The translations under genes and the position numbers were made by a program. The notes beneath the pieces were generated by a model that was not told the origin of the DNA, ran no database searches, and saw nothing but the letters and a program-made list of their open reading frames with translations. Shown here one piece after another: positions 9,849 to 32,289 of a stretch of DNA of 64,000 bases (position 1 is the first letter of the stretch; each line of letters begins with the position of its first letter). Source of the DNA: Moheibacter lacus (GTDB lineage: Bacteria; Bacteroidota; Bacteroidia; Flavobacteriales; Weeksellaceae); assembly GCF_014042165.1 (NCBI RefSeq), contig NZ_JACDZE010000001.1:1634595-1698594 (forward strand), given 5' to 3'.

Positions 9849-10460
9849 TTAATTAAGAGTCAATTGCATGGTAGAACAACTGTCTTCGTTGATGGTAATA
9901 TTTCCGCTCCAGTTGTAATCACTACATGAAGCTGTCCATTGGTAAGAACCGGCAGGTAGATTGAAATTTGCGCTAGAACCGGCATTACAGCCAGGATTTC
10001 CTCCCGAATAATATCCTGAGATTGTGCCTGATGTATTTGAGATATAAACCGTTATATTTCCACATCCGAAATCAGATTGTGTCCAGAAAGTAGCTTTTCC
10101 ATTGCCATCGCCATTTCCGCCACCATTTCCGTTTCCGCCGCCATTACCACCTTCAAATCCACTGCAGTCTACATCAAGCCAAGCTTGCGTGGCATCATAA
10201 TAATAATCATAATTGGAGCAGCCTTCGAGTGCATCCAATAAGTCTAATGCCGAATCCTTTAAATTATTACAAGTGCTTACAGAAGGATTGGCATTAAAAG
10301 CATCAATCATGTTATTGTATCGCTCCAATTCATAGTCATAGTTACAGGTTTCTACAACGTCACCTTCGTCATCTCCAAAACATGAAGAGAAAACAGAAAG
10401 CGAAGAAACGATCATCATCATTCCTAAAATTTTCAAAAATGGGGTAAAGTAAATTTTCAT
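9849..10460 (-). CDS. Putative lipoprotein with Gly/Asn-rich linker
   Basis: About 203 residues from ATG 10460 (the frame is open 75 nt further upstream, but that would run over the promoter). The signal peptide ends in a lipobox-like SVFSSC at about residue 27. There is a Cys- and Asp/Tyr-rich N-terminal domain, a linker of GNGGGNGN-type repeats at about residues 105-120, and a C-terminal beta domain of about 75 residues with four Cys (FGCGNITVYIS ... CSDYNW). No family recognised, though the C-terminal domain resembles small beta modules of flavobacterial surface proteins. The promoter carries a 26-bp palindrome shared with the sensor-kinase operon at 29-32 kb, suggesting control by that system. 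Confidence 0.8.
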   Translation of the reverse strand: MKIYFTPFLKILGMMMIVSSLSVFSSCFGDDEGDVVETCNYDYELERYNNMIDAFNANPSVSTCNNLKDSALDLLDALEGCSNYDYYYDATQAWLDVDCSGFEGGNGGGNGNGGGNGDGNGKATFWTQSDFGCGNITVYISNTSGTISGYYSGGNPGCNAGSSANFNLPAGSYQWTASCSDYNWSGNITINEDSCSTMQLTLN

Positions 10461-10508: not shown

Positions 10509-10516
10509 CAAAAATA
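10509..10516 (-). promoter_or_regulatory. -7 box of the lipoprotein gene
   Basis: TATTTTTG on the minus strand fits TAnnTTTG. It lies 18 nt downstream of the palindrome at 10535-10560, the same spacing as at the kinase operon. Confidence 0.65.
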
Positions 10517-10534: not shown

Positions 10535-10560
10535 AAAAATACCCCCAACTGGGTATTTTT
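10535..10560. promoter_or_regulatory. NarL-type operator palindrome upstream of the lipoprotein gene
   Basis: AAAAATACCC-N6-GGGTATTTTT, perfect 10-bp arms. TACCC-N6-GGGTA matches the 7-2-7 geometry of NarL-family sites (heptamer TACYYMT). The centre is 31.5 nt from the -7 box, so roughly -40 to -45 from transcription start, a usual activator position. Identical arms and spacing recur at 32264-32289. Confidence 0.7.
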
Positions 10561-10649: not shown

Positions 10650-11606
10650 ATGCAATTAAAATTTAAATCTTTTTTATTGGCGCTTTTACCCGGCGTTATC
10701 GTATTTCTTTTTTCTTTGTTATTTCCTATTTTAAATCCGATTTTAGTTGGATTGGTATTGGGAATTATTTTGGGGAATTTATTTCGTTTTCACACCGAAT
10801 TCGTAGCATTTAGCCATCAATCAGGGAACCGATTTTTAGAATTTTCCGTGATATTTCTAGCATTTGGGATCAATTATGGTCATTTGACCAAACTGGGTTT
10901 GGAAAGTTTGCTATTTGTGTTCCTATTAGTATTATCTGTTTTAATCGTCACTTATTTATTGTCCAAAAAACCTTTGAATTGGATGATCGGTTTTGGTACT
11001 GCGATATGTGGGTCTTCTGCAATTGCCGCTTTGGCACCAACACTTGACAAAGAAAAAGGCGACACGGGAATTGCAATGGCCGTAGTAAATCTTTACGGGA
11101 TGCTGGGCATGATTATTCTTCCATTTGTACTGTTGAAATTGAATTTAGAACCGATTAAAAATGCAATGATCATCGGTGGTTCTTTGCATTCGGTTGGAAA
11201 TGTAGCCGGTTCAGGATTTATGGTGAGTGATGGTGTGGGAGAACTTTCTGTTACCATCAAAATGGTGCGGGTTTCTTTGCTTTCCTTTGGTTTGCTCTTT
11301 TTTAATTTTTTAGCACAAAAAGGAAAAAATCTCCCTTGGAGACAGTATTTTAAACTGCCTTGGTACATCTGGGGATTTCTAATGATAACGGTTTTGGTTT
11401 CTTTTGTGGCGATTCCAAAAGAGTTATCAGCATGGATAGATTTAATCGGAAAGCTACTGTTGACATTGGCGATGACAAACATCGGCATCCAAATTCGATT
11501 CAAAGATTTGGTTCAATCCGGAAAAAAAGGATTGACATTTGGATTGGGAATTTGGGTATTCCAATTGGCTTTTATTGCAGTTTATTTGATGTTTTCTGGA
11601 AGCTAA
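10650..11606 (+). CDS. YeiH/UPF0324 family membrane transporter
   Basis: 318 residues with nine to ten hydrophobic segments. The family-typical GFGTAICGSSAIAALAPT motif lies in the middle and GGSLHSVGNVAGSGFMVS around residue 175. This is the Cons_hypoth698/YeiH family, often described as putative sulfate or sulfite exporters; the substrate is not certain. It stands alone, divergent from the lipoprotein gene across the palindrome region, and its last four bases overlap the convergent TPR gene's stop. No clear -7 box was found immediately upstream. Confidence 0.9.
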   Translation: MQLKFKSFLLALLPGVIVFLFSLLFPILNPILVGLVLGIILGNLFRFHTEFVAFSHQSGNRFLEFSVIFLAFGINYGHLTKLGLESLLFVFLLVLSVLIVTYLLSKKPLNWMIGFGTAICGSSAIAALAPTLDKEKGDTGIAMAVVNLYGMLGMIILPFVLLKLNLEPIKNAMIIGGSLHSVGNVAGSGFMVSDGVGELSVTIKMVRVSLLSFGLLFFNFLAQKGKNLPWRQYFKLPWYIWGFLMITVLVSFVAIPKELSAWIDLIGKLLLTLAMTNIGIQIRFKDLVQSGKKGLTFGLGIWVFQLAFIAVYLMFSGS

Positions 11607-28458: not shown

Positions 28459-29055
28459 TTATATCCAACGATTTTCTACAGCCAATGAAATAAGTTCGAT
28501 CATATTTTTGGACGCGGTTTTTCTGAAGATATTTTTTCGATGCGTGGAAACGGTTAATGGGCTGATGTTGAGTTCTTCAGCGATTTCTTCTGATGTTTTA
28601 CTTTGGCTGAGTAATTTGATGATTTCCAGTTCTCTTTTTCCTAGTTTGATGTCGGATTGAATTTTTTCGGGATTATGGATAAATTTCTTTTTGGAATGTA
28701 GCAATGCCATTTTGATGGTTAAAAACAATTGTTCGTTGTGAAAAGGTTTGATCAAAAAGGCATAAGGCTGTTCATTTCCGGCGCGGGAAATGATTTCTCG
28801 GTTGCTATAAGCCGTTAAGAAAATAACTGGAATAGAAGGTTTTAAATTTAATTTTGAAATCAAATGGATGCCGTCAATCTCATGTTCCAAATTGATGTCG
28901 GTCAAAACCAGTTGAAAATCAATTTCCTGCGATAGGCCGATGGCGATTTCGGGTGAAGTTGCGATTTCTGCTGAGAAATTCTGGCTCTCCAGTTGTATTT
29001 TCAAGTTGTTTGCGATGATGATTTCATCTTCAATTATCAAAATTTTTTCTTTCAT
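28459..29055 (-). CDS. Response regulator, NarL/LuxR-type
   Basis: 198 residues. Receiver domain 1-120 with the acidic pocket DE (residues 9-10), the phospho-acceptor Asp in VLTDINLEHEIDG (about residue 53) and Lys in LIKPFHNEQLF. C-terminal GerE helix-turn-helix KLGKRELEIIKLLSQSKTSEEIAEELNIS (in pieces KRELEIIKLL, SPLTVSTHRKNIF). It follows the sensor kinase by 43 nt. The NarL-type 7-2-7 palindrome in the kinase promoter and at 10535 is its likely binding site (inference). Confidence 0.93.
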   Translation of the reverse strand: MKEKILIIEDEIIIANNLKIQLESQNFSAEIATSPEIAIGLSQEIDFQLVLTDINLEHEIDGIHLISKLNLKPSIPVIFLTAYSNREIISRAGNEQPYAFLIKPFHNEQLFLTIKMALLHSKKKFIHNPEKIQSDIKLGKRELEIIKLLSQSKTSEEIAEELNISPLTVSTHRKNIFRKTASKNMIELISLAVENRWI

Positions 29056-29098: not shown

Positions 29099-32000
29099 TT
29101 ATTCCTTTTTTGAAATGATGATTTTCACTAAACTTCCTTCTTTATTTTCAATTTTCACTTCGCCATTTAATTGTTTTACTAAAGTGAAAATTAAATTTAA
29201 TCCTTTGCTGGAGTGCAAATCTTTGGTTTCCGGTTGAAATCCAATTCCATTGTCATGGTAAATCAAAACCAATTCACTTTCGTTTTGGTAACCTGAAATT
29301 CGGATTTTCTTGTCGGTATTTTTGTGTTGAAAAGCATGTTTAATGGAATTGGTTACCAATTCATTAAATATCAATCCGAGATACGTAATGCGTTTGGTCG
29401 GAAAATCAAATGGTGGAAGTTCAAATTTTGTTTCAATTTTTTGACCGGAAAACAAGAGAATTTCCCTGATGAGTTCTTCAATGAATTCTGAAGTTTGAAT
29501 TTTTTCATTGTCTTCTTTATTCAACAAATCATGAACTTTGGCGACGGTGTAAACTCTTGATTGTAATAGTTTTAGCTTTTCCTGAATTTCTTTATTTTCT
29601 ATATCAAATGATTGTAAATCAATCAGGCTCGTGATCAATTGTAGGTTGTTTTTTACACGGTGGTTCAGCTCTTGCATTAAAAAGCTGATGTTTTCTTGTT
29701 GTTTTTTTGAGGTTGCCAGAGATTCGTTGAGTGCAGCATTGGATTGGTTCAATTCTTCCGTTCTGTTTTCAACCATTTTGACCAATCTTCGATTTGTCCT
29801 TTTTTGTTGTAAATTTTTGACATAAAAAATCAAACCGATGAGGGAAATGATGGACATTAAAGCCAATATTTTGAACCAAGTGGTTTGGTACCAAGGAGAA
29901 TTGATGATGATGACTTTTTGGTCAGTTTTTCCCCAAAGCAGTTCATTGTTACTGCCCATGACTTTAAATATATAGGTTCCCGGATTTAAATTGGTGTAAG
30001 TGGTTGATTTTTCTTTGGTTTCAGGACGCCATTGGTCATCAAATCCTTCCAAGATGAAACGGTATCGGTTTTTTTCTGAACGAAGGAAATTCAGACTGAT
30101 AAAATCAAATGTGATCACATTTTCGTTGTGTGAAAAATAAAGCGTATCTGAATAAAGGATGTTTTGATTGATGGATTTTCCAAATAATTTGATGTCCTCT
30201 ACGTGTGTTGAACCTATTTTTTTATTGACCTGGACTTTTTCTGGTCTTATGATGTTGAAGCCATTCATGCCGCCGAAATAAAAATTTCCTGATTCATCTT
30301 TATAGGCTGCTTTTCCATTAAATTCATTGTTTTGAAGACCATCTTCTTCTGTGTAATTTTTAAATTGGTTAGTATTTGGATCATATACTGAAAGGCCAAA
30401 ATTGGTAGAAACCCAAACTTGATCTACATCATCTACCAGTAATCCGTAAATAAAATCATTGGGCAAACCATTTTGGCGGAACCATTTGGTGACGGTATTT
30501 TTTTCTGGGTCGATTTTACTAATTCCTTTTGCAGTCCCTACCCAAATTTTGCCTTTGCTGTCTTCAGAAATTGCAAAAACGCGTGGATTGGATAGATTGC
30601 CATAATATTTCACGTTTTTTCCTACTAAATGATACAATCCTTCATCGCTTCCTATCCAAATTCCGCCTTTTCGGTCGATGTAACTCGTGCGTGAACGAAT
30701 GAGGTTTTTCCCATCGATGAAGACGGGTTGGGTTTTCCCGGAGTTGAGATCCATTTCAAAGATTCCGTTGGACCAAGTATGGATCCAGAGTTTTTCTTCT
30801 GAAATGAAAGTAAGTTGGATCACGTCTTTGTCCTTAAAAGTAGTTGGGATTTTGATGAATTGATCCTTTCTTTCATCATACCTGACCAGACCTTCTTCAA
30901 ATCCACCTGCCCAAATACGACCTTGATGGTCTTGTGCAATGGTGTATTCCAAATTATCGGTTCGGTACAATTGATAAGTTTTAGTTTTGAGATTATATTT
31001 GGCAAAACCAAGTTCTGTCGCCATCCAAAGATTATCGTCTTTTCTTAAAAAATTAAATATGCTGATAAAATCCTTTTTCGGAGAATTTTTAACGTTAATT
31101 CTCAAAGGTGAAAACTTTTTATGAAGTGGATGATAATATAAAATTCCTTTTGTTTCGGTTCCAAAAAATGTTCCTCCCAGCGAATCTTTTTTTATGCTCA
31201 AAATCACAGCTTCAATTTCCTGATTGGAGAAATCTTTAAAATGAATTTCTTCTAAATCTCTGAAATTGGATAGAAAATAATTATGATTCAGACCTCCGAC
31301 AAATACTTGATTTTCATTCCATTTGTATAAACTTTTCACATAAATATCATGGAGTTTGATCAATTTTTCTTCAGCGATGATGTATTGATAAAGTCCTAGA
31401 TTGGTTCCAATTAAAATACGGTGAGGATTGACTTGTAAGATGGAGTTGATCTGATGGTTTTTCAGCGAATGAAATGCCTCGTCGGTAAAGACTTTTGATG
31501 CTTTTTCATCGTACCGATAAACTCCGCTGATGTTTGTTCCGATTAAATATTGGTTTTGATGAATGGGGGCTAGGGTTGTAACGAAGTCATTTATAAGGAT
31601 GTCCGGTACTTTTAGCGTTTTTATGGTTTTGGATTTTCGATTGATGGTAAAAATATGACCAACTGCACCGGCTATGATATTTTCTTTACTGGCGGTGAGG
31701 GCATAAGTGAATTTGATGAATTCGTTTGGGTTTTTATAGCGTTCGAAGTTTAGGAATCGGTTTTCTTTAGGTAAATAAGCGTTAACAGAATTCGTATTGG
31801 TCGCTATCCATAAAGTATCGTTCAGAAAAAGCAATGAGCGGATGTGATCATCTTTTAAATCATTTGGTTTGTTGCCAGAAAAAAAAACTTTGAATACATT
31901 TCCATTGTACCGGTTCAATCCATTTTGGGTGCCGGCCCAGAGATATCCTTTTTGGTCAAAATCCATCGAAGAAACACCTAATTGTGACAATCCATCTTGC

Positions 32001-32101
32001 TGCGCCATTACTTTTACAGTCAAAGTTTCCTGCGAATGGATTTGGATGGAAATAAATAATCCCAGTGCCACTAAAAGTCTTTTTTGAATAGAAATTTTCA
32101 C
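29099..32101 (-). CDS. Sensor histidine kinase with two-component propellers and Y_Y_Y domain
   Basis: About 1000 residues. The GTG at 32101 gives a normal signal peptide (MKISIQKRLLVALGLFISIQ); a TTG at 32179 in the same frame would add 26 residues. The periplasmic part holds many Reg_prop repeats (e.g. GLSQLGVSSMDFDQKGYLWAGTQNGLNRY, split as DQKGYLWAGTQNGLNRY) forming two propellers, then a Y_Y_Y domain (RYRFILEGFDDQWR). A transmembrane helix (ILALMSIISLIGLIFYV) leads to a HisKA_2-type kinase with phospho-His in QELNHRVKNNLQLI and ATP-binding N box NELVTNSIKHAF. Such sensors often monitor extracellular polysaccharides; the ligand here is unknown. The kinase and regulator form an operon. Confidence 0.93.
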   Translation of the reverse strand: MKISIQKRLLVALGLFISIQIHSQETLTVKVMAQQDGLSQLGVSSMDFDQKGYLWAGTQNGLNRYNGNVFKVFFSGNKPNDLKDDHIRSLLFLNDTLWIATNTNSVNAYLPKENRFLNFERYKNPNEFIKFTYALTASKENIIAGAVGHIFTINRKSKTIKTLKVPDILINDFVTTLAPIHQNQYLIGTNISGVYRYDEKASKVFTDEAFHSLKNHQINSILQVNPHRILIGTNLGLYQYIIAEEKLIKLHDIYVKSLYKWNENQVFVGGLNHNYFLSNFRDLEEIHFKDFSNQEIEAVILSIKKDSLGGTFFGTETKGILYYHPLHKKFSPLRINVKNSPKKDFISIFNFLRKDDNLWMATELGFAKYNLKTKTYQLYRTDNLEYTIAQDHQGRIWAGGFEEGLVRYDERKDQFIKIPTTFKDKDVIQLTFISEEKLWIHTWSNGIFEMDLNSGKTQPVFIDGKNLIRSRTSYIDRKGGIWIGSDEGLYHLVGKNVKYYGNLSNPRVFAISEDSKGKIWVGTAKGISKIDPEKNTVTKWFRQNGLPNDFIYGLLVDDVDQVWVSTNFGLSVYDPNTNQFKNYTEEDGLQNNEFNGKAAYKDESGNFYFGGMNGFNIIRPEKVQVNKKIGSTHVEDIKLFGKSINQNILYSDTLYFSHNENVITFDFISLNFLRSEKNRYRFILEGFDDQWRPETKEKSTTYTNLNPGTYIFKVMGSNNELLWGKTDQKVIIINSPWYQTTWFKILALMSIISLIGLIFYVKNLQQKRTNRRLVKMVENRTEELNQSNAALNESLATSKKQQENISFLMQELNHRVKNNLQLITSLIDLQSFDIENKEIQEKLKLLQSRVYTVAKVHDLLNKEDNEKIQTSEFIEELIREILLFSGQKIETKFELPPFDFPTKRITYLGLIFNELVTNSIKHAFQHKNTDKKIRISGYQNESELVLIYHDNGIGFQPETKDLHSSKGLNLIFTLVKQLNGEVKIENKEGSLVKIIISKKE

Positions 32102-32237
32102 GGATTCCGAATTTATAAACTTTGAATTTGAATTCCTAAAAAAAATTAAGCTGAAAAAGCAGTTGCGCTTTTCCAGCAAAATTCATATTTCAATTTTAGT
32201 AAACAGGGAAGGTTAAGTCATTTACTCTTTTATATGG

Positions 32238-32263: not shown

Positions 32264-32289
32264 AAAAATACCCTGTGCAGGGTATTTTT
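32264..32289. promoter_or_regulatory. NarL-type operator palindrome at the kinase/regulator promoter
   Basis: AAAAATACCCTG-TG-CAGGGTATTTTT, a perfect 12-bp dyad. The arms are the same as those at 10535-10560 but the central six bases differ. TACCC-N6-GGGTA equals the 7-2-7 layout of NarL sites. It could instead terminate the upstream ALDH gene, but the other copy lies in a divergent promoter where a terminator makes no sense. Confidence 0.7.

Follow-up and report, generated by a model that had tools for sequence, protein, structure and literature searches.

The window analyzed here is a 64,000-nucleotide stretch of the Moheibacter lacus genome. Its minus strand carries an operon for a sensor kinase and a response regulator and, at a second locus, a lipoprotein gene, each preceded by a palindrome and a -7 box. 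The features, in window coordinates, are as follows:

9849-10460, minus strand: lipoprotein of 203 aa, with a signal peptide/lipobox (...SVFSSC), a Gly/Asn-rich linker and a Cys-containing C-terminal domain
10509-10516, minus strand: -7 box TATTTTTG of the lipoprotein, a perfect TAnnTTTG, starting 22 nt after the 18-bp core palindrome
10535-10560, minus strand: predicted operator palindrome AAAAATACCC-AGTTGG-GGGTATTTTT, 5' of the lipoprotein; the lipoprotein ortholog in genome G005 has ATACCT-N6-GGGTAT
28459-29055, minus strand: response regulator, REC and GerE domains (FixJ/NarL type), recognition helix TVSTHRKNIFRKT
29099-32101, minus strand: sensor kinase with Reg_prop propeller, Y_Y_Y, TM, HisKA_2 and HATPase_c, from domain matches
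32150-32177, minus strand: hairpin and then a T-run inside the ~130-nt kinase leader, between promoter and start codon
32238-32245, minus strand: -7 box TATTTTTA of the kinase/regulator operon, starting 22 nt after the 18-bp core palindrome
32264-32289, minus strand: predicted operator palindrome AAAAATACCC-TGCACA-GGGTATTTTT, 5' of the kinase/regulator operon; arms, not core, kept in genomes G005 and G003

The kinase most likely starts at the GTG at 32101 and not at the TTG at 32179, where the mechanical open reading frame begins; its orthologs in G005 and G003 likewise begin at GTG. For the lipoprotein, the most likely start is the ATG at 10460. This protein has no match in Pfam or NCBIfam, and its structure, predicted without an alignment, reached a mean pLDDT of 47.8, too poor for use. 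A plasmid comparison gave no matches. The regulator belongs to the REC-GerE family (PF00072, 68.9 bits against a cut-off of 30.2; PF00196, 53.7 bits against 23.5). A sequence-only reading of the window had called it NarL-type, which agrees with this domain architecture; among the NCBIfam models, however, it stands nearer to FixJ, its best relative (E 2.7e-22, 79.3 of 255 bits), than to NarL (E 5.3e-11, 42.1 of 250 bits), and falls below the equivalog cut-offs of both. That reading also spoke of a Y_Y_Y sensor system: the Y_Y_Y domain is present, but the kinase is of the HisKA_2/HWE type and not of the HisKA_3 type of NarX/NarL systems. Outside the genus, no regulator orthologs were found in 296 family genomes (E 1e-42) or 296 order genomes (E 1e-35), and a scan of the genome contigs returned distant receivers only.

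The arms at 32264-32289 and 10535-10560 are identical, as had been noticed from the letters alone, and the surrounding geometry is also as described: at both loci, read along the minus strand that encodes the two downstream genes, a TAnnTTT(G/A) -7 box comes 18 nt after the 26-bp palindrome, and the six central bases and the spacers to the box differ. Within the window, TACCC-N6-GGGTA with at most one mismatch occurs twice, against a shuffle mean of 0.47, and 10 of 100 shuffles reach two. A pattern search of the whole genome, which had been suggested as a check on whether the motif is frequent, found ATACCC-N6-GGGTAT at exactly two sites in 2.77 Mb, namely the two window palindromes, both promoter-placed. 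The relaxed pattern AATACC-N8-GGTATT adds one exact site, C1:45360, with the -7-like box TATTTTCG at 22 nt; downstream of it come genes for a 170-aa secreted protein and then for a 198-aa protein that weakly resembles an outer-membrane barrel family (score under the Pfam cut-off). At all three sites of this genome (G000), found without using the -7 box in the search, a -7-like box starts 22 nt after the 18-bp core palindrome. The divergent YeiH-like gene (10650-11606) was considered as a target of the lipoprotein palindrome and set aside: no -7 box lies at operator spacing on its (plus) side, and in G005 the lipoprotein ortholog stands beside different genes.

Regulator and kinase are present in three of the six genomes of the genus, and each of these three species has the site in the operon's own promoter. 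The G005 kinase promoter contains ATACCC-TTTAGA-GGGTAT, 21 nt from TAACTTTG, and the regulator there is 75% identical to that of the window; the G003 promoter, in a gap between divergent genes, contains ATACCC-TATGAT-AGGTAT, 22 nt from TTAATTTG, with a regulator 51% identical. The lipoprotein ortholog in G005 (71% identical) is preceded by ATACCT-ATGAAT-GGGTAT, 22 nt from TAAATTTG, and its neighbours differ from those in the source genome. The association of the motif with both the operon and the lipoprotein is thus conserved across species, and since the arms and their spacing stay constant and cores, spacers and neighbours vary, we interpret the palindrome as a protein-binding site travelling with its gene.

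At these five orthologous-promoter sites, selected without regard to the -7 box, the box follows ATACCC-N6-GGGTAT at 22, 22, 21, 22 and 22 nt, an arrangement matched by none of 20,000 shuffles. The TAnnTTTG score summed over the five sites has one sharp peak (25 of 30, at offset 22), the next best value being 18 at offset 21 and all others on that side at most 14; three boxes are perfect and the other two keep five of six positions. By their sequence, the promoters fit the Bacteroidota primary-sigma type, with TAnnTTTG at -7. A chance resemblance between two AT-rich intergenic regions would be conceivable from the window by itself, where the core pattern is not extremely improbable, but the conservation across species and the shuffles for the -7 position reduce its probability to almost nothing.

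As RNA, both window palindromes can fold, at about -11 to -12 kcal/mol, and the hairpin at 32264 lies 73 nt after a co-directional aldehyde dehydrogenase-like gene and scores terminator-like, with a symmetric T-run, so that the palindromes might be intrinsic terminators or RNA hairpins instead of DNA operators. Against this, the hairpin stands upstream of the -7 box, and the stem arms are broken in the G003 site and the G005 lipoprotein site with the position of the box unmoved. Three of the five sites (the source lipoprotein, its G005 ortholog and the G003 kinase) lie between divergent genes, where there is nothing to terminate; for this reason we reject termination as the only common function, the outcome that would have counted against a shared operator, and regard the terminator or hairpin explanation as very improbable. 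The 32264 palindrome may possibly play a double role, also terminating the upstream gene. That the palindromes are real promoter-linked operators seems to us, on these comparisons, close to certain. The separate hairpin in the kinase leader (32150-32177, minus strand) is possibly an attenuator of the operon; the G005 kinase leader showed no clear counterpart, and the G003 leader is only about 26 nt long.

The palindrome centre lies 35.5 bp upstream of the -7 box centre at four of the five sites and 34.5 bp upstream at the fifth. We estimated the transcription start from the box: if this is centred near -7, as TAnnTTTG is in Bacteroides and Flavobacterium (PMC7366714), the palindrome is centred at about -42.5. 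This is near the 7-2-7 inverted repeat, centred at -44.5, from which E. coli NarL activates ogt (PMC7419079), and, with the start position inferred in this way, it agrees with a class-II placement (centre between about -41.5 and -44.5, with a constant distance to the core promoter). The half-sites agree with the NarL heptamer TACYYMT (PMC4886647) at 5-7 of its 7 positions, with 7 of 7 in both halves of the G005 lipoprotein site. The earlier proposal of a NarL-type operator agrees with the TACYY part of the half-sites; positions 6-7 vary from site to site.

A palindrome in this position overlaps the expected -33 element, and occlusion is common with such an overlap; the same regulator could thus act as a repressor, its dimer covering the -33 region and blocking RNA polymerase in negative autoregulation. 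However, the distance is fixed within one base at five promoters and many family loci, which occlusion does not need, no recognisable TTTG -33 element is kept at the sites, and NarL activates from the equivalent position. The one-base tolerance would suit contact with the polymerase better than plain occlusion, and we consider repression unlikely.

The most likely candidate for the operator-binding protein is the regulator at 28459-29055. G000 encodes about a dozen other GerE proteins, and among the GerE loci read in this genome the kinase/regulator operon is the one with a perfect site in its own promoter. One of the others, the response regulator C7:74733, also has the HRKNI helix and could bind the same arms; its locus offers only an imperfect site (AATACCCATAAATAGGTAAT), 2 kb away and without a -7 box. 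G002 lacks both kinase and regulator, yet holds two sites of this type. In G005 and G002, further such sites precede secreted proteins or lipoproteins, one of them adjoining a PAS-GerE gene. For the C43 palindrome of G002, a terminator-only reading was considered and rejected, because TAGCTTTG lies at 22 nt before a 695-aa gene. At L134 (G005:C162:4403-5484), two copies of the ATACCTACAGATAGGTAT palindrome flank a gene for a 267-aa secreted protein, divergent from a PAS-GerE regulator; we describe this locus as a putative self-contained regulator/target cassette.

Beyond the genus, exact operator copies occur in 39 of 296 family genomes. A perfect TAnnTTTG stands at 21-22 nt in 10 of the 30 family loci read (background rate, 0.00067 per position); other perfect copies within 60 nt on either side of the 30 loci are found only at offsets 17, 17 and 18. 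Several sites have the arms and no -7 box. A GerE gene lies within 1.5 kb of 7 of the 10 boxed sites versus 5 of the 20 others (Fisher p 0.045); some of these genes encode PAS-GerE proteins and are divergent from the target, and others encode REC-GerE proteins and lie just upstream. The idea of an operator private to one regulator does not hold up, given the recurrence of the same arms and spacing beside other GerE genes. The operator is also seen in other genera of the family, where at three loci (L024, L026, L037) it stands ahead of a gene for a ~450-aa secreted protein (NNLQITGTSVD...), at one of them directly after a REC-GerE gene. At L010, an operator whose perfect -7 box follows at 21 nt lies ahead of the gene for a radical-SAM protein that by eye resembles anaerobic sulfatase-maturating enzymes.

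As arms and geometry recur beside other GerE regulators, another paralog could also bind. The sites might even be bound mainly by a different GerE regulator, such as C7:74733, or by several paralogs, in which case the operon would be a target and not the master; the identical arms and spacing found elsewhere in the family next to PAS-GerE and further REC-GerE genes, the two sites in G002 without the orthologous operon, and the shared HRKNI helix all speak for this. On the other side are the site in the operon's own promoter wherever the operon is found and the want of a second perfect site among the G000 GerE loci read. We judge this explanation rather unlikely.

TACCAA-N4-TTGGTA represents a second operator class. 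It is located between a TPR-kinase/REC-GerE operon and a gene for a ~112-aa secreted protein, which in G000 has a Por_Secre_tail match, and is followed by TAnnTTTG after 22-23 nt. It is conserved in five genus genomes: L143 (G000:C1:747125), L142, L145, L146 and L147. In the few sequences available, the recognition helix is HKKNI in regulators of TACCAA operators versus HRKNI in GerE proteins beside ATACCC sites, with the exception of the G002 C43 protein, which has HTKKI. The chances seem to us even that this reflects a family-wide code, in which HRKNI GerE proteins (REC-GerE and PAS-GerE) would recognise ATACCC-N6-GGGTAT and HKKNI proteins TACCAA-N4-TTGGTA, both activating TAnnTTTG promoters from one fixed position some 42 bp ahead of the start, with mostly surface or secreted targets. 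Elsewhere in G000 (C8:47680-48140; L207:2680-3140), three tandem minus-strand units of ~150 bp each combine a palindrome of the TACCAA class with a TTACTTTG/TTAATTTG box at 22 nt, followed by a ~80-nt stretch ending in a strong hairpin and a T-run. These units adjoin an insertion-sequence-like gene, have weak, sub-threshold similarity to the Bacteroidetes FopS and look like three tandem, putative small-RNA genes.

For the window itself, we consider it probable that the palindromes are operators of the 28459-29055 regulator and serve class-II activation, with positive autoregulation and control of a few surface genes, which bears out in outline the autoregulation and lipoprotein control proposed from the letters alone. 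We infer the identity of the binder, its activating effect, the signalling from kinase to regulator and the nature of the signal. The binding form would be a phosphorylated REC-GerE dimer that reads the ATACCC/GGGTAT arms and largely ignores the six middle bases. With its centre about 42.5 bp ahead of the start, the dimer would overlap the -33 region of the Bacteroidota-type promoter and recruit RNA polymerase from this class-II position. In this way the regulator would activate its own kinase/regulator operon and, in addition, a small cell-surface set comprising the lipoprotein and probably the outer-membrane-barrel-type gene at G000:C1:45360.

Descriptions of operators for GerE-type regulators seem to be scarce in the Bacteroidota; our literature search found none, and no precedent there for an ATACCC-N6-GGGTAT operator. 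With a cross-species footprint, a fixed -7 geometry and a candidate regulator, the present operator allows a specific prediction about a sensor system and the surface proteins it would control. If two operator classes, two helices and one spacing hold true, regulons and regulator-operator pairs could be read from genomes across the family.

Compared with known systems, the kinase shares its Reg_prop and Y_Y_Y sensor with the propeller/Y_Y_Y systems of the Bacteroidota, which are related to the Bacteroides hybrid systems, but here the regulator is a separate REC-GerE protein, in contrast to a fused AraC-type output, and the kinase is of the HisKA_2 type. No polysaccharide-utilisation genes were recognised beside the operon. 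FixJ-type REC-GerE regulators bind as dimers and activate at promoters; FixJ is the best full-length NCBIfam relative of our regulator, with which it has the phosphorylatable receiver and the GerE domain in common, although the regulator scores far under the FixJ cut-off, is paired with a propeller/Y_Y_Y sensor and has other targets. With the 7-2-7 operators of E. coli NarL (ogt, yeaR), the palindromes share inverted TACYY outer half-sites, 16 bp end to end, a response regulator with a GerE domain and a single site that overlaps the -35/-33 region or lies immediately upstream of it. They differ in that inner positions 6-7 often deviate, the AT arms are extended and the promoter is of the TAnnTTTG kind, and the system differs from NarL in its regulator, nearer FixJ, and its HisKA_2 kinase.
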